Assembly: GCA_011389935.1 (NCBI GenBank) | Contig: JAABTJ010000002.1 | Span: 1 to 64,000 of the forward strand | Direction of reading: 5' to 3' | Length of the DNA stretch: 64,000 nt | From: Desulfobacteraceae bacterium | Lineage (GTDB): Bacteria > Desulfobacterota > Desulfobacteria > Desulfobacterales > Desulfosalsimonadaceae | Shown here: positions 54,076 through 61,208 of the stretch, in pieces | Layout of the letters: the number at the start of each line of letters is the position of its first letter | Numbering within the stretch: position 1 is the first letter of the stretch | Made by a program: the position numbers and the translations under genes | The notes under the pieces: model-generated | What the model was told of the DNA's origin: nothing | Databases searched by the model: none | What the model saw: only the letters and a program-made list of their open reading frames with translations

Positions 54076-55065
54076 GTGAACCGTTATTTGCCATGGTTTT
54101 TATTTTTGATCGTCGGCCTCTTGCTGAGCGGATGCATCGCTCCCCAGGTCAGCCTTTTTTCAGATGCCTCGGACCCCCTGAACGAGTACCGTCTTTCCGG
54201 CTCCCGGGCGGGAAAGGTGGTGGTGATTCCGGTCCAGGGTACTATATCCGACGAAGTGGACGACCGGATGTTCAGGAGCAAACCGGGAATGGTCCAGGAG
54301 GTTGTTTCCCAGCTTGACCTTGCGCGCCGCGACAACGAGGTCGGCGCAGTGCTTTTGAAAATCGATTCCGCAGGAGGCTCGGTCACCGCAAGCGATATTC
54401 TTTACCATGAAATTGAACGGTTCAAAGAGGAGACCGGCATCAAGGTCGTGGTATCCATGATGAACTTTGCCGCGTCCGGGGGGTATTACATCTCTCTTCC
54501 GGCCGATCATATCATTGCGCACCCCACAACGGTTACCGGGTCTGTCGGCGTGATTTTTATCCGTCCGGATATCCACGGGTTAATGGATAAAATCGGCGTG
54601 GACGTAAAAGTCGATGCATCCGGCAAATACAAGGACATGGGCTCTATACTGCGCCCCAGCACGGAAAGTGAAGATGTTTTGTTTCAGTCCATCGTGGACG
54701 CCCTTGGCGACCGGTTTATCGAAAAAATCAAAAAGCACCGCAATCTCTCTGATGACGCCGTCAAGGACATCCGGACCGCCCGCATCTACCTTGCCGATGA
54801 GGCAAAGGCCGCGGGATTGGTGGATGAGGTCGGCTACCTCACGGATGCCGTGGACAAGGCCAGGTCCCTTGCCGGGCTGCATCCGGATTGCAAGGTGGTC
54901 GTTTACCGCCGCTCCTATTTTGCCAATGACAATGTGTATAATCCCGTTCTGATGAATGCCGGTCCCCGGGTGTCCCCCCTGGTCGACCTCGGTTTGCCGC
55001 AGCATATGGCCCGCAATCTGACCGGTTTTTATTATCTGTGGATGCCAGGCCTGGACAATAGGTAG
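54076..55065 (+). CDS. sppA: SppA-type signal peptide peptidase, lipoprotein
   Basis: A 329-residue S49-family protease. The N-terminal signal ends in lipobox LLSGC, so the mature protein is lipid-anchored on the outer face. The core has VVVIPVQGTIS, IDSAGGSVTASD, the nucleophile Ser in NFAASGGYYIS near 140, and the base Lys in SGKYKDMGSILRPST near 190, the Ser-Lys dyad of short (36K) SppA. The start is GTG, preceded by CAGGAGGTG. It leads an operon with the repeat protein 2 bp downstream. Confidence 0.93.
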   Translation: MNRYLPWFLFLIVGLLLSGCIAPQVSLFSDASDPLNEYRLSGSRAGKVVVIPVQGTISDEVDDRMFRSKPGMVQEVVSQLDLARRDNEVGAVLLKIDSAGGSVTASDILYHEIERFKEETGIKVVVSMMNFAASGGYYISLPADHIIAHPTTVTGSVGVIFIRPDIHGLMDKIGVDVKVDASGKYKDMGSILRPSTESEDVLFQSIVDALGDRFIEKIKKHRNLSDDAVKDIRTARIYLADEAKAAGLVDEVGYLTDAVDKARSLAGLHPDCKVVVYRRSYFANDNVYNPVLMNAGPRVSPLVDLGLPQHMARNLTGFYYLWMPGLDNR

Positions 55066-55067
55066 AG

Positions 55068-56126
55068 ATGCCGAGTAAATTCGATCACAAAATCAAAACC
55101 ATCCTGCAGATCCTGCATTCCCGCGGGTATACCGTAAAAGGGATAAACCAGGGCATCCGGTTGAAGATGAACGGCAACGTTGACGTCGATATTTACACCT
55201 TGAAATTCGATGCGAACAAGCTGCGTGCCCGGTTGAAGCTCCATATCGACGATGCCGGGGAGCGTATTCAGATTGCCGGCCGTCTCGGCGGAAAGCTCCG
55301 GGAAGCCCTCGGCAACACCCTGGATATGGAGGAATTCAAGTTTTCGCGGTGTATTTCCGGGGACTACTATTATTATGCCCGGCTATTCATGCTCGATCTG
55401 AAAATAAAAAGGATCATGAAGGCGATGCGTGCCCGGGGGTATTGCATCAAAGGGATCCGGCAGGGCATCCGGTTGAAGATGAACGGCAACGTTGACATCG
55501 ATATTTACACCCTGCAATTTGATGCGAACAAGCTGCGTGCCCGGTTAAAACTCCATATCGACGATGCCGGGGAGCGTGCCCGTGTCATCCGTGACGTCAG
55601 TGAAAAGCTGCGGGAGGACATGGGCAGCACCCTGGACATGGAGGAATTCAAGTTTTCGCGGTGTGTTTCCGGGAACTACTATTATTATGCACGGCTCTTT
55701 ATGCTGGATGTCCAGGATGTCGGCAGTTCGGAGGAGAAGCCGGAAGTCCTCGCGGTCCGGAAAAGGGGGCTTTCGCGGGAGGCGGAAAACACATCGAAGA
55801 GAGAAGACCTTCAGACGGTCGTTGAAGCGTTTGAATCCGTGGATTCAAAAATGCTTCGAAGATCCCTCGACGGGTTGGGGATTCCCCGCACGTCGATTCT
55901 TCGCGTGGCAATTTCACGCATTTTCAGGGCGGCGACGGATTCGGAGGAGTTGAAAGCGGCTGTCCAGGAAGAAGCCATGAGAATATCCGATCCCAAAGAC
56001 CGCAGCGACCTTGATGCCATCGTCTCGGTAAACGACGTGGCTTTTCTCGATGCCATAATACGGATGCTGCACCAATCGGTTTCCGAAGGGCCCGGCGGAA
56101 TGGGTGGGATCATAAACGATCATTGA
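55068..56126 (+). CDS. uncharacterised protein with two near-identical 104-residue repeats
   Basis: A 352-residue cytosolic protein I do not recognise. Residues about 9-112 and 113-216 are tandem copies sharing stretches such as GIRLKMNGNVD and DANKLRARLKLHIDDAGER, and ending MEEFKFSRC..YYYYARLFML. The DNA copies, 312 bp apart, are also nearly identical, so the duplication is recent or homogenised. The unique tail (217-352) is charged and helical (VVEAFESVDSKMLRRSLDGLG). It follows sppA by two bases and should be cotranslated. No signal peptide or membrane segment is seen. Confidence 0.85.
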   Translation: MPSKFDHKIKTILQILHSRGYTVKGINQGIRLKMNGNVDVDIYTLKFDANKLRARLKLHIDDAGERIQIAGRLGGKLREALGNTLDMEEFKFSRCISGDYYYYARLFMLDLKIKRIMKAMRARGYCIKGIRQGIRLKMNGNVDIDIYTLQFDANKLRARLKLHIDDAGERARVIRDVSEKLREDMGSTLDMEEFKFSRCVSGNYYYYARLFMLDVQDVGSSEEKPEVLAVRKRGLSREAENTSKREDLQTVVEAFESVDSKMLRRSLDGLGIPRTSILRVAISRIFRAATDSEELKAAVQEEAMRISDPKDRSDLDAIVSVNDVAFLDAIIRMLHQSVSEGPGGMGGIINDH

Positions 56127-56130
56127 TCCC

Positions 56131-56285
56131 TGACGGCTTCGTAAAAAGTCCAATATCTGCGTTGCGTACAATCTTTGAAGAATCTCACGTACGGCTAAGT
56201 ACGATCAATTCTTCAAAGATTGCACGCGCCTTGATCTTGAACTTTTTACTTTGCCGTCCAAAACCGACTTTTACAAGTTCATCAA
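56131..56285. repeat. dispersed nested palindromic repeat, copy B
   Basis: A 155-bp copy of the element at 40000-40155. Where copy A has stem caatttttgaagaat/attcttcaaaaattg, this copy has caatctttgaagaat/attcttcaaagattg: both arms changed, so pairing is kept. It lies between convergent genes, and its last bases contain the stop codon of the J-like membrane protein. Confidence 0.9.
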
Positions 56286-58636
56286 TCCTTGACGGCCCTT
56301 ACTACCCCGCATTCCCGCGAATCCCGCCGTGTTTCCATGGCTTTCCCCCCGGGAGAGACGGTAATGGTGTCGACAATCTTGTACCATTCTTCCGAATAGC
56401 CGGAGTAGCTGTCCGCAGACCAGTACCATTTTTCTTCGAGCACCGGAAACGCCGGATCGGTTTTATAAATGTTTGAAAGCTCCGTTGCCGTGGGAAGCCG
56501 CCAATCTGAATAGCCGCCGGTGGAGAGATCCTCCGTATATGCTGCGGCGTCGTCAAACGGCATGCAGGGCTTGTCAGCGGTGGCAGCGGAATCCAGAAGC
56601 GTCCACATCAATCCGGTTTCCGTGTCTTTTACCACGCCCTCCCCCGTTTCGATGAACCGGCCGCCGGAGGACCGGATCATATCCGCCAGCTGATTTTTCA
56701 TCCGCTCTGCCTCCGCTTTCCGGATAAGCCGGTCCAGCCTGACGACTTCTTCGTCAATTCGTTTTTTGATCGGGGTGTTCGGGTATGCTTTCAAGTAGTC
56801 CGTGTAAACACGCCTGGCGCGGACGTAATCCTCTCCGGCATGGGTCGCTTTCTGCTGAAGGGCCTGAAAAACCTGCTCTTGGCGAATATTCTGCCGGTAA
56901 CGGGCCAGCTCCCCCTTGAGCGTGTCTGCATGGCTGTTGTCGTAGAGCTCGATGTAGCCCCGGGCCAATGCTTCGCATTCTTCCCAGTTCTTATCCGCCT
57001 CTGCTTTTTCAAGGGCGTTTTCCACATAAATATAATATTCATTGCCCATATCGTTTAACATATCCTTTACTTGGGAAAGGTTTTTCCCGTCCGGATATTT
57101 TTCGATATAGTCGGTCAGGGCCCGGATCTTTTCGGCGATGTCGGCTTCGATAACAATCCGGGAAAGCGCTTCAAAATCCCTTTTTTCCGCCATGGAATCG
57201 ATTTCGGCCATTTTTTTGCGGGCGTTGGCGACGTATTGCGCGGGCGGATTGGTCTCCAGGTAATCGGCAATCTGCGATTTTGCCGTATCGAAATCTTCAT
57301 CCCGGAGCCATGAATCCACCCGGCTGCTCATTTCCGCGTACTGCTTTTCGTCCTTTTTCGACAATCGTATGTCGATGCGCCTGCGCGCATCGTCCACCAG
57401 GGCCTCATATTTCTTATCTCCCTGGTGCGACTGGATGAACTGCCGGAGCGCGGAAACCTGCTCGTCTACGTTGTTCGAAGCATCCACCCGGGCGATAAGC
57501 CCTTCATATTGCCTGTTTATGGCCTGTTCCTCCCGGTGGTTGACATAGAGAAATCCCGCCGTTGAAAGGACAGCCAAAAGGACGCAGACGCCGGCGGCAA
57601 CCATCATAAGTTTGCGCTTTGTGCCTTTCGGCGGCTCGATGGTCCATTTTTTCCGCTTGCAGTAATCCTTTATGTAGCGTTCCGCTTCATGCTTTTCCAT
57701 ACCGAAATCCATGGCTTTTCGGACCAGAACTTCGTAATATTCGTTGCGGATTTTTCCGTTGAATCCGGAGACGTCGATATCGGAATCGAGTTCGGCCAGC
57801 CTGGATTTTGCAAGGCTGATATCGTAGGCGATGCGGGTTTCTTCATTTTTAAAAATGGTGACGCAATACCCGGCCAGCGTGTTCCCTGCCGTCACCCGGG
57901 CATCTTTTTTGCCGGCGCTTGCCAGTTGTTTTTTCTTTTCAATGGCGGCTTCCTGGAGGGCTTCCAGCTCGGTGCTTTCATGGAGCGAAAGAAAATCATA
58001 CAGGGATTTTTTGTCGACGATTTTCAGGTTTTCCCGGATGGATTTTTCAAGGGATCGGTCCATCTGCCGGGGCGCCGAAGGGGTTTTTGTCTTGCCGTTT
58101 TTCAGCATGGGATTGTAAACCCTTGACTTGATGTCCTCGGGTTTGAAGTTGTGCCGTTTGGCCAGCTTGTTTATCTCTTCTTCCGTAATATACCCCTTGG
58201 CCATTCGCAGGCTCAATTGCTGGTCAATACGGGTATATTTTTCGTCCTTTTTTATCCGGATGCGATCCTGTATTTCGTTTTCCGCTATTTCATGGACCTG
58301 GGCGAGGCGGACAATATCTTCCTTGGAAATATATCCCTTGCCCATAAGAATATCGATATGGCGGTCGATTTCGGCGATTTTATCTGTCTTGTCCTTTACG
58401 TTGCTGTCTTTTGCGGCTGCGGCTTCCTTTTCCCGAAGGTCCGGGTCGTTCATTACCCGCCGGATTTCCGGAATCATGCTGATGTATTTCTGCGCCTGCA
58501 GCCCTTTGGTGGGATGGTTGCGCATGCGGCTCCACTCGGACTGCTTCCGGGTAATGGCGGATTCGATCGTTTCCGGATCCGTTTCCGGGGGGTCGATCGA
58601 AAGCTCAAGCAATATGTAAAAATTTTCGCGTTCCAT
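56282..58636 (-). CDS. J-like domain/membrane/DUF1566 fusion, partner of the Hsp70
   Basis: A 784-residue protein. Residues 4-68 read like a J domain (NFYILLELSIDPPETD, then RNHPTKGLQAQKY and RRVMNDPDLREKE), with HPT where HPD is required to stimulate Hsp70. Two 36-residue helical repeats follow (MGKGYISKEDI, MAKGYITEEEI). One membrane helix is near 343-366 (MMVAAGVCVLLAVL), then about 280 residues of helical repeats. A DUF1566 (Lcl-type) domain ends it, with TGLMWTLLD, GYSDWRLPTATEL and WYWSAD. With the N-terminus inside, DUF1566 would be periplasmic. It is third in the GrpE/Hsp70 operon. Confidence 0.85.
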   Translation of the reverse strand: MERENFYILLELSIDPPETDPETIESAITRKQSEWSRMRNHPTKGLQAQKYISMIPEIRRVMNDPDLREKEAAAAKDSNVKDKTDKIAEIDRHIDILMGKGYISKEDIVRLAQVHEIAENEIQDRIRIKKDEKYTRIDQQLSLRMAKGYITEEEINKLAKRHNFKPEDIKSRVYNPMLKNGKTKTPSAPRQMDRSLEKSIRENLKIVDKKSLYDFLSLHESTELEALQEAAIEKKKQLASAGKKDARVTAGNTLAGYCVTIFKNEETRIAYDISLAKSRLAELDSDIDVSGFNGKIRNEYYEVLVRKAMDFGMEKHEAERYIKDYCKRKKWTIEPPKGTKRKLMMVAAGVCVLLAVLSTAGFLYVNHREEQAINRQYEGLIARVDASNNVDEQVSALRQFIQSHQGDKKYEALVDDARRRIDIRLSKKDEKQYAEMSSRVDSWLRDEDFDTAKSQIADYLETNPPAQYVANARKKMAEIDSMAEKRDFEALSRIVIEADIAEKIRALTDYIEKYPDGKNLSQVKDMLNDMGNEYYIYVENALEKAEADKNWEECEALARGYIELYDNSHADTLKGELARYRQNIRQEQVFQALQQKATHAGEDYVRARRVYTDYLKAYPNTPIKKRIDEEVVRLDRLIRKAEAERMKNQLADMIRSSGGRFIETGEGVVKDTETGLMWTLLDSAATADKPCMPFDDAAAYTEDLSTGGYSDWRLPTATELSNIYKTDPAFPVLEEKWYWSADSYSGYSEEWYKIVDTITVSPGGKAMETRRDSRECGVVRAVKD

Positions 58637-58725
58637 AGACTTCACGTGTCCGGTTTGAAACAAGACGCCAACAAAGAGATTGGGCCAAAATCCGAATGTT
58701 GAGATGGGTTGTACTGATAAAAGGG

Positions 58726-60408
58726 TTACAATACCATGTGCTTCTGGGTTCTGATCTTGGCCTGTTCAAATTCTTCCCCGCTGATAACGGATGCCGTATC
58801 CACGACCACGTCGATTTTCTGGGCATTGGTGGTTTCTTCCGCGGTAATATGGAGGCGTCCTTCCTCGTTTAACTCGTATTCAATCGCGATGGGAGAGTCT
58901 TCCGGCAGATCGGAAGGAAGGTTCAAAACCGCCTTTTTGATTTCGACGGCGTTGTCCACGGGAATTTCGACCTTGCTGGTTTCACTTTCCATGATGCGGA
59001 TCAATACTGTCTGCTGGTTGTGTGCGGCGGTAAAGAATTTCTTTTTAATACGAACCGGGACCGGGGTGTTCCGGAGCACCAGGTTGAAGATGATCTCCTC
59101 GTTGTTCGGGTTGTGCGCGACCACCCCGAAGCTTTTGCTGGTGACATTTCTGACCTGGAGCATTGCATTTTCGACGCTGGGAAGAGTATACCCGCTTTCA
59201 TCGGCAAGCGCCATGGCGGCTTCCCTGAAATCTTCGGCCGAGATTTCCTGCTTGTCTATCATTTCGGTCAGCGTTTCAGGGCGTTCTATGACTTTTTGGG
59301 TTTTTTCCGACAGGCGCCGGATGAGATCGTCATTCAATGCCAGTTTCCAGCCGTAAATGGCGGCTCCCTTTGCAACGGCCTCATCCGGATCAAAAATCTT
59401 GGGGGTGATATTGAATTCCTTGGATATTTTTTCAATAACCTGGGGCATGCGTGTGGCGCCCCCCACCAGGATGAATTCGTCAAATGACGGAAACCCCTTT
59501 GCTTCAGCGGCTTCAAGCATTTCTCTGGTAAAATCGATGGTCCGGTACAGCAGGTCCTCGGTCAGTTCCTCGAATTTTTCCCGTTCCAGCATGAGCTTGA
59601 TGCGCTGGCCGCCATGGGTTATGGCGATCGGCGTCTTGTTCCGCTGGGACAGGCTTTTTTTCGCTTTTTCCGCGGACAACTGAAGATCCTGCCATGTGTC
59701 CGGGTCGTCCAGGATATCTTCTGTAATGCCGGTTTCTTCCTGGAATTTTTCCACCAGGTACGCGACGATCCGGTCGTCCCAGTCCTTGCCGCCCAGGTTG
59801 TGGTCTCCGCCGGTGCAGACCACCTCCACGGCTTCCTTGCTGATATATATCATGGTCACGTCAAATGTGCCGCCTCCCAGGTCGTATACGAGGACGGTTT
59901 TCTTGTCGGTCGTTTCAAGGGAACCATACGCTATGGCGGCGGCCGTAGGTTCGTTGATGATGTGGCGCACGTTCAGGCCCGCGATTTCCCCGGCCTTCCG
60001 GGTGGCTTCCCGCTCATTGATGCCGAAATAGGCCGGGCAGGTAATCACTACGTCGGTGACTTCCTCGTTCATAAACTCCCGGGCATCCTGTGCGAGTTTT
60101 TTGAGGATGTATGCGGATATCTCTTCCGGCCGGTATCGCTGCCCCGCAAACTCGAAAATGAAATTCGGCTCCCCCATGGAACGTTTGATAAAGCTGACGA
60201 CCTCGTCCGGATACAGCTTGGCGCTTTCTTTGGCCACCTCTCCGACCACGATGTTTTCTTCGTCGAAAAATACGACGGAAGGGGTAACGCGTTCGTTTTC
60301 CGAGTTGGCGATAATAACGGCCTTGCCGAATTCGTCAACGTACGAAATCGAGGAATATGTCGTGCCGAGATCGATGCCGAAGATGCGCTTTATCGATTTT
60401 TTATTCAA
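58726..60408 (-). CDS. divergent Hsp70 (DnaK-like) without C-terminal lid
   Basis: A 560-residue Hsp70. The ATPase has FGIDLGTTYSSISYVD, VYDLGGGTFDVTMI and FILVGGATRMPQVIEKI. An unusual insert of about 60 residues (TLTEMIDKQEISAEDF) separates it from the beta-sandwich substrate domain (SFGVVAHNPNNEEIIFNLVL). The chain ends soon after the sandwich, so the helical lid and EEVD-like tail of DnaK are missing. The start is TTG at 60408, overlapping the TGA of the GrpE-like gene; GGCAGG lies upstream. It is likely dedicated to the adjoining partners. Confidence 0.92.
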   Translation of the reverse strand: MNKKSIKRIFGIDLGTTYSSISYVDEFGKAVIIANSENERVTPSVVFFDEENIVVGEVAKESAKLYPDEVVSFIKRSMGEPNFIFEFAGQRYRPEEISAYILKKLAQDAREFMNEEVTDVVITCPAYFGINEREATRKAGEIAGLNVRHIINEPTAAAIAYGSLETTDKKTVLVYDLGGGTFDVTMIYISKEAVEVVCTGGDHNLGGKDWDDRIVAYLVEKFQEETGITEDILDDPDTWQDLQLSAEKAKKSLSQRNKTPIAITHGGQRIKLMLEREKFEELTEDLLYRTIDFTREMLEAAEAKGFPSFDEFILVGGATRMPQVIEKISKEFNITPKIFDPDEAVAKGAAIYGWKLALNDDLIRRLSEKTQKVIERPETLTEMIDKQEISAEDFREAAMALADESGYTLPSVENAMLQVRNVTSKSFGVVAHNPNNEEIIFNLVLRNTPVPVRIKKKFFTAAHNQQTVLIRIMESETSKVEIPVDNAVEIKKAVLNLPSDLPEDSPIAIEYELNEEGRLHITAEETTNAQKIDVVVDTASVISGEEFEQAKIRTQKHMVL

Positions 60409-61208
60409 CTTTCGCCTGCCTTGTCATTTGATGAGTCGTTGTAAACATAAACCGAAACCATTTCCGGCCGAATCACTTTTCCTTCCCATTCATACCCGGG
60501 GCGCAGGCTTTCCGACACCAGCCGGTTGTTTTCAGGGATTTCGGTAGGGATTTTTTTTATAATGCGCTGCCTGGCGGAGTCAAACGTATTGGATGGGCTG
60601 GTAAAGGGGTATACGCCCTGAAAGGTGAAAAGATCTTCCAGATCCGATATTATCTGGTCCATGAAGTCGAGAAGGATGACCGCGGCATTTTCCGATTGCA
60701 CTTCATTTTCGTAGTGGTATTTGAATTTTCTCGTATCGTCTATGATTTTGATGATGTCCGTGATCATGGAGAGCAGGTGTTTTTTAATGATGCCGTCCCT
60801 GAAATCCTGCAGCTGGTCATGGAGATCGTCGATAATTCTGTTTTTATGCTCGTCGTATTTGATCTTGCCTTCGAAATGAGCGGTGAGCTCCTCCATTCGA
60901 CGGCTGATTCCCTTGATTTCGTCCAGGATGTACGGGATGATGTCCGGCATGTCGGTTTGCCGGGGCGCAGCTGTTCCCTGATTCCCGGCATGTTCGGACG
61001 GCTCCCCGGCCGGTGAGGGTTTTGCCGGGGATTCTTCAGGGAATTTTTCATGCACGCCGGTATCTTCTTCAGCGGGCCCGCCTTCCAACGAAGACTTGTT
61101 TGAAGCCGTCGGTTTTTCATCCATCATAATACCGAGTTCAAGCATATCTCCGGGGTCGTCTTCGGGGCTGTTTTCCTTGCCGGTATCGTCTTTGTCGCTG
61201 TCGTTCAT
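60405..61208 (-). CDS. GrpE-like nucleotide exchange factor
   Basis: A 267-residue protein. The first 110 residues are acidic and low-complexity (DSDKDDTGKENSPEDDPGD). A long coiled coil follows near 115-160 (YILDEIKGISRRMEELTAHFE). The C-terminal beta domain has the GrpE pattern ENNRLVSESLRPGYEWEGKVIRPEMVSVYVY, quoted as LRPGYEWEGKVIRPEMVSV. It should release ADP from the Hsp70 encoded next, with which it is translationally coupled (TTGA overlap). ATG 61208 is preferred to a frame from 61250. The long acidic N-terminus is unusual for GrpE. Confidence 0.85.
   Translation of the reverse strand: MNDSDKDDTGKENSPEDDPGDMLELGIMMDEKPTASNKSSLEGGPAEEDTGVHEKFPEESPAKPSPAGEPSEHAGNQGTAAPRQTDMPDIIPYILDEIKGISRRMEELTAHFEGKIKYDEHKNRIIDDLHDQLQDFRDGIIKKHLLSMITDIIKIIDDTRKFKYHYENEVQSENAAVILLDFMDQIISDLEDLFTFQGVYPFTSPSNTFDSARQRIIKKIPTEIPENNRLVSESLRPGYEWEGKVIRPEMVSVYVYNDSSNDKAGES

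Follow-up and report, generated by a model that had tools for sequence, protein, structure and literature searches.

A GrpE, lidless Hsp70 and membrane J-like protein gene unit of Desulfobacterales without the HPD motif

Specialised Hsp70 systems and the locus

The contact between the aspartate of the J-protein HPD motif and Arg167 of DnaK is central to present-day models of Hsp70 activation by J proteins. In DnaK, this aspartate (D35) bonds both R167 and Q378 (PMC8215388), and the E. coli DnaK substitution R167H suppresses DnaJ D35N, as reported from Suh et al. 1998 in two later papers (PMC5519331, PMC7289447). Among the described systems with which the present one can be compared, E. coli HscC is likewise a specialised Hsp70 with membrane-anchored J proteins (the tail-anchored DjlB and DjlC) encoded nearby (PMC8215388), and MxDnaK2 of M. 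xanthus is likewise a second Hsp70 in an operon with its own upstream GrpE (MXAN_6672, GrpS; PMC11019930). By analogy, mitochondrial Pam18/Pam16 and trypanosome TbPam18/TbPam16 provide a comparable pair of J and J-like proteins at an inner membrane (PMC11349236). Literature searches that paired DUF1566 with Hsp70, or membrane J proteins with bacterial Hsp70s that lack a lid, and that covered few subscription papers, returned no description of the present system.

We analyzed a stretch of 64,000 nucleotides (the window) from a Desulfobacteraceae bacterium (contig JAABTJ010000002.1). Positions 56282-61208 of its minus strand hold three consecutive genes, encoding a GrpE homologue, an Hsp70 and a membrane J-like protein that we refer to as J-TM (Table 1). 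The genes lie in series and the first two overlap (the GrpE stop with the Hsp70 start, by 4 nt), as the original prediction had stated; it was also correct that the Hsp70 starts with TTG (at the 60408 end of the gene), the start codon being ATG in most orthologues. The GrpE homologue matches Pfam GrpE (PF01025) with an E-value of 1.4e-8 and 35.0 bits, above the curated cut-off of 25.8. Its long acidic N-terminus, likewise predicted, is borne out by its composition (residues 1-100 include 25 D/E and 8 K/R) and is poorly conserved in the family alignment, the GrpE core beginning at about residue 108. Because a canonical grpE-dnaK locus is found elsewhere in the same genome, which also encodes several HPD-bearing J proteins, the trio is additional to the canonical set. 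A convergent neighbour adjoins the trio in many genomes and is at most a candidate member of the machine. PADLOC, run on four proteins, returned zero defence-system matches.

Table 1. Genes and protein domains of the locus, in window coordinates
Feature	Position	Strand	Basis
GrpE homologue (267 aa)	60405..61208	-	ATG at 61208; Pfam GrpE, family alignment, co-occurrence
Hsp70 (560 aa)	58726..60408	-	TTG start; Pfam HSP70, alignments, NBD tree
J-TM protein (784 aa)	56282..58636	-	ATG at 58636; Pfam, AF2, profile comparison, hydropathy
J-like domain 1 (J1), residues ~2-73	58418..58633	-	AF2 helices, VIA, motif counts
Repeats R1 (84-127) and R2 (131-174), ~44 residues each	58115..58387	-	hhalign R1 vs R2, E 8.9e-22
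J-like domain 2 (J2), residues ~205-283	57788..58024	-	AF2, VIA, hhalign, residue counts
Single transmembrane segment, within residues ~341-367	57536..57616	-	Hydropathy, sequence
C-terminal Lcl_C (DUF1566), predicted periplasmic, residues 667-752 of 784 aa	56381..56638	-	Pfam PF07603
Neighbour, function unassigned, convergent to the trio	55068..56126	+	Adjoins the trio in many genomes

A scan of named records, with one genome per species, yielded 32 loci. Each came either from Desulfobacterales or from a MAG with no label finer than Deltaproteobacteria or Proteobacteria, and the carriers include a cultured bacterium, Desulfatibacillum alkenivorans DSM 16219. Where the contig was long enough, the order GrpE-Hsp70-J was usual, and it is kept across many families, with the GrpE and Hsp70 genes often overlapping. 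We surveyed 194 genomes from the order and found J-TM encoded by 53 of them, the family Hsp70 by 54 and the family GrpE by 50. J-TM and Hsp70 occurred together in 52 of the 194 (J-TM alone in one, Hsp70 alone in two), with a Fisher p of ~1e-43, a statistic that ignores phylogeny. GrpE and Hsp70 occurred together in 50 genomes, GrpE alone in none and Hsp70 without GrpE in four, and the family GrpE is absent from two genomes of a single genus (G105 and G483). Extra solo copies of the Hsp70 are present in three genomes (G569, G558 and G541), and samples of the phylum contained no full-length relatives outside the order. The three genes are thus neighbours in other genomes, adjacent across the order, as had been anticipated. 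The proposal that the Hsp70 is private to this system is supported by the co-occurrence, the gene order, the separate canonical DnaK and GrpE, and a remodelled pocket for the HPD aspartate (see below).

A lidless Hsp70 with altered HPD-contact residues

The 560-residue protein matches Pfam HSP70 (PF00012) with an E-value of 3.6e-109. Its C-terminus falls opposite residue ~525 of the 638 in E. coli DnaK, as do those of three other aligned family members; it therefore lacks the SBD-alpha lid and the C-terminal tail of DnaK, as originally proposed, and consists of NBD and SBD-beta only. The SBD-beta is present (a second phmmer stretch, 439-549, matches the DnaK SBD, and pocket residues are retained), and the equivalents of catalytic residues D8, T11, K70, E171, D194 and T199 are invariant in the family. 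The insert that had been noted between the domains was recovered as well: the segment that runs from DnaK position 382 to the linker has 7 residues in DnaK and commonly 55-62 in the family, an insert of ~55 aa that is predicted to be helical in an AlphaFold2 (AF2) model of low confidence (mean pLDDT 62.7).

This Hsp70 falls outside the classes with which it was compared. In addition to lacking the lid of DnaK, it scores below both NCBIfam DnaK cut-offs (375.2 against 648 bits, and 359.2 against 822.55 bits) and below that for HscA (301.3 against 708.55 bits), and in a tree of NBDs the 66 family Hsp70s form one clade (support 1.0) with HscC outside, the distance of 3.24 between the window Hsp70 and HscC being the largest among those compared. 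The GrpE-signature loop, the deletion of which marks HscA and HscC, is shortened in the family too, despite the GrpE gene in the system. Divergent Hsp70s from the phylum (L039-L047) were considered as relatives and placed outside the family; their readable sites keep R167 (K in one).

In the alignments, both of the residues that the HPD aspartate contacts in DnaK are replaced across the family. At the position of R167, the 66 family Hsp70s have Q (55), H (nine) or R (two), and at the position of Q378 they have Y (53), F (eight) or others (five); the window protein has H149 and Y, respectively. Within a comparison set of 18 Hsp70s, which included E. coli DnaK, HscA and HscC and the DnaK of this genome, 17 have R at 167 (the remaining one K) and 17 have Q at 378. 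The two family members with R167 are a solo copy and a divergent second Hsp70 whose gene adjoins both a family copy and a J gene carrying HPS. Extra Hsp70 copies that have no adjacent J-TM gene mostly carry Q or H at 167 also, indicating that these residues do not demand an adjacent J-TM gene. Isoleucine replaces D148, part of the substrate-stimulation relay of DnaK (PMC8215388), in 64 of the 66 proteins, and the VLLLD linker has mostly given way to a pattern in which two positions are basic; P143, R151, N170, N415 and P419 are kept (P419 in 66/66). Given that R167H in DnaK suppresses DnaJ D35N in E. coli, the Hsp70 and J-TM look like a naturally uncoupled or re-coupled pair. As judged from these alignments, the loss of both contact residues from the private Hsp70 is new here.

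Predicted J folds in the membrane protein

J-TM comprises, in order, J1, the repeats R1-R2, J2, a transmembrane helix, a TPR-like region and Lcl_C. The single membrane helix of the original prediction was confirmed by hydropathy, in which a single hydrophobic stretch stands out (19-residue windows with starts at 341-349); because basic residues (KGTKRK) precede it, the N-terminus is predicted by the positive-inside rule to be cytosolic and the C-terminus periplasmic. The predicted C-terminal DUF1566 domain was found as a match to Lcl_C (PF07603, the family formerly named DUF1566) with an E-value of 2.8e-14 and 53.9 bits against a curated cut-off of 34.9 (residues 676-761 in a 793-aa reading, corresponding to 667-752 in the 784-aa protein). 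There is also a weak NCBIfam match of the C-terminal part to the fimbrial tip adhesin FimD. A role for this part as a periplasmic sensor or adhesin is speculative, and draws on the Lcl_C homology and the predicted topology.

The AF2 model of the cytosolic region, computed with eight orthologues (mean pLDDT 84, pTM 0.42), shows a J-type arrangement of helices in two places, residues 6-99 and residues 212-290, with J1 helices at 6-9, 21-37, 45-63 and 65-99. Foldseek with this model placed J domains in most of the top rows (probability up to 0.99, with E-values above 1), and VIA aligned residues 2-73 with 6rzy (Z 8.2) and residues 205-283 with 2dn9 (Z 8.1; a similar range aligned with 3ucs), together with many further J domains. 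Because helical models often yield middling Z values, the agreement of many J domains on two separate segments carries more weight than the Z figures. Comparison with DnaJ by hhalign gave better support for J2 (E-value 2.3e-4, probability 45%) than for J1 (1.7e-3, probability 15%); Pfam DnaJ (PF00226) gave no match to J1 at E up to 1, and from sequence comparison by itself support for J1 is weak. A PDB sequence search with the cytosolic profile gave no J-domain match, its best rows (MazF and GCN4) being put down to chance or to coiled coils; among viral structures, Foldseek hit scattered J-domain proteins and no useful relative; and homeodomain matches at residues 85-136 (VIA Z about 7) were taken to reflect a common three-helix arrangement. 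The suggestion of a J-like N-terminus thus agrees with structure prediction, which indicates two J folds in J-TM, neither with HPD, a combination that is new here. J2 and the R1-R2 repeats were absent from the original prediction.

Residues 35-44 of J1 form the near-invariant motif WS[RK]xRNHPTK, with HPT at 41-43 (T in 53/55). J2 is near invariant at KDA (244-246) and YD (271-272), and the position aligned to HPD is variable. J1 can be aligned in two registers: the first sets HPT on HPD and needs a three-residue deletion, and the second sets W35 for Tyr32, S-R-x for HPD, and R39-N40 on the R-N that follows HPD. Profile scoring of the two is tied (35.4 for the HPT register against 35.1 for the alternative, at gap-open 6). 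In the VIA alignments, nearly all chain residues in range are aligned (71/71 for 6iws, 69/70 for 6rzy and 62/63 for 5nro), counts from which we infer that there is no room for the deletion. P34A extends helix II in simulations (PMC13012618), and the AF2 helix II, running to residue 37, fits the second register because the Pro that ends helix II is gone there. The structural models therefore favour the second register, and under either one J1 as aligned has no Asp at position 35. The claim that HPT stands in for HPD survives in part: HPT is real and conserved, and it may not lie at the HPD position, a point that is also new here.

These observations bear on the alternative that J-TM and the Hsp70 are an ordinary J-Hsp70 pair with a swapped motif, in which HPT, lying exactly at HPD, still stimulates the ATPase and Q/H and Y/F compensate. 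This would account for the conservation of HPT and for the retention of P419, which the Pro of HPD contacts, and is in keeping with the tied scores and the E. coli suppressor; against it stand the reach of helix II to residue 37 and the absence of room for the deletion in all three structure alignments, and on balance we find it rather doubtful.

A proposed mechanism and comparison with known systems

By its gene unit and domain make-up the trio is an Hsp70/J/NEF-type machine, the membrane protein of which has the J fold by prediction and, as aligned, lacks HPD in both J-like domains. We consider it probable that a dedicated Hsp70 and NEF have a tandem J-like receptor as their docking site on the inner membrane and work without the HPD-R167 switch. 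The inner-membrane receptor would present its two J-like domains in the cytosol, where the tandem region would likely dock the private Hsp70 at the membrane via a remodelled J-Hsp70 interface, and GrpE would likely reset it. The missing HPD-R167 contact may insulate the system from DnaK/DnaJ, or the Hsp70 may fire in another way. Client release from lidless Hsp70 variants should be fast, which suggests few tethered clients or an adaptor role; less certainly, without this coupling and the lid the Hsp70 could serve few clients, as an ATPase or adaptor that is docked at the membrane and holds them weakly, and not be a general folder. More speculatively, ligand binding by the periplasmic TPR-like/Lcl_C part might control docking or the ATPase cycle. 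We entertain only tentatively the stronger version, in which the HPD-R167 switch has been abandoned altogether and the HPD-less tandem-J membrane receptor carries a periplasmic signal to the lidless cytosolic Hsp70.

The neighbours of these genes raise the alternative of a signalling module, with the Hsp70 serving not as a chaperone but as a conformational adaptor for c-di-GMP signalling or surface sensing. In D. alkenivorans, the trio is preceded by a DUF4388 gene and a cNMP-binding/PilZ gene; in G569, solo Hsp70 copies either neighbour PilZ genes or are flanked by a chemotaxis receptor on one side and further signalling genes on the other; and in G558 a solo copy has a DUF4388 gene nearby. 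The PilZ-DnaK chaperones CsdK1/2 of M. xanthus also link an Hsp70 to PilZ (PMC10313047), and the absence of a lid would suit an adaptor. However, such genes are absent beside the trio in the stretch of the window that was examined and the neighbours differ between genomes; the link of the Hsp70 family to signalling genes is an association only, and we regard this alternative as unlikely. It is very improbable that J1 and J2 are spacers, or relics without activity, beside a soluble Hsp70 that works with ordinary DnaJ proteins, the gene order being historical, because, although HPD is absent from both domains and solo Hsp70 copies exist, the J1 and J2 motifs are near invariant, co-occurrence is almost perfect, and the Hsp70 lacks the residues that a canonical HPD Asp contacts.

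A conserved system that has neither the Asp nor the two residues it contacts allows a direct test of whether that contact is needed, or of its replacement. A privately docked Hsp70 of the kind that we favour may also offer a ready-made Hsp70-J pair free of cross-talk with DnaK/DnaJ, and suggests that Hsp70s are at work on the inner membrane in sulfate reducers.

The trio has the same three roles as DnaK/DnaJ/GrpE, with which the family has the catalytic residues and the SBD-beta core in common; it differs in having no lid or tail and no HPD, in its changed R167 and Q378 and mostly changed VLLLD linker, and in a membrane receptor that takes the place of soluble DnaJ. HscC has a similar deletion in NBD lobe I, without the GrpE-signature loop, and DjlB and DjlC also depart from HPD (HPE). 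HscC, however, keeps R167 and is not expected to use GrpE (PMC8215388), whereas the family has changed R167 and has a GrpE gene; and DjlB and DjlC are described with one J domain and without an Lcl_C part (PMC8215388), whereas the family has two J-like domains and an Hsp70 without a lid. MxDnaK2 is unlike the family in its reported DnaK-type architecture, and the accessible part of its description includes no membrane tandem-J partner (PMC11019930). No translocase gene was seen beside the trio. In trypanosomes, both proteins of the pair are J-like, and TbPam18 has HSD for HPD, with the Asp kept (PMC11349236). Pam18 and Pam16 are two polypeptides serving the general mitochondrial Hsp70, whereas in the family both J-like domains are carried by one protein.

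Genes flanking the trio

The convergent neighbour of the trio (the adjacent GrpE, lidless Hsp70 and J-TM genes, the last encoding a membrane protein with two J-like domains) contains an internal tandem duplication with 82.5% DNA identity across 320 bases, and in relatives its homologue often adjoins the trio, either as a single gene or as two adjacent genes. The D. alkenivorans trio is immediately preceded, on its upstream side, by two genes (L037:1779-3899), one of DUF4388 type and one encoding a cNMP-binding/PilZ protein.

Genes beside the trio in the window
Gene	Position	Strand	Remarks
Neighbour gene	55068-56126	+	Internal tandem duplication; homologue often beside the trio in relatives
S49 peptidase gene	54076-55065	+	In several genomes, conserved next to both the neighbour gene and the trio

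Additional and variant Hsp70 genes

Two further Hsp70-like genes, adjacent to each other, with open frames of 614 and 934 amino acids, are present in the window's own genome (L003 and L004; G000:C5:43502-45999). Solo extra copies of the trio-type Hsp70, with no adjoining J-TM gene, were found in genomes G569 (six copies; L138-L142), G558 (L144-L146) and G541 (L149), some of them adjoining PilZ, chemotaxis or DUF4388 genes. At the variant locus L150, the J-TM gene has HPS in place of HPT, and it adjoins two neighbouring Hsp70 genes, one of which has Q and the other R at DnaK position 167.

Other Hsp70 types and the E. coli systems

Another, dedicated-looking Hsp70 type in Desulfobacterota (L041, L042 and L045) keeps R167, the DnaK residue contacted by the Asp of HPD; its genes adjoin a gene of 248-299 amino acids and a large one (about 830-860 amino acids). 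Hsp70 genes at L039, L040 and L046 lie within clusters that, judged by eye, resemble gas-vesicle genes. In E. coli K-12, both DjlB and DjlC (djlB and djlC, L135) have a J domain with HPE instead of HPD, and their partner HscC retains R167.
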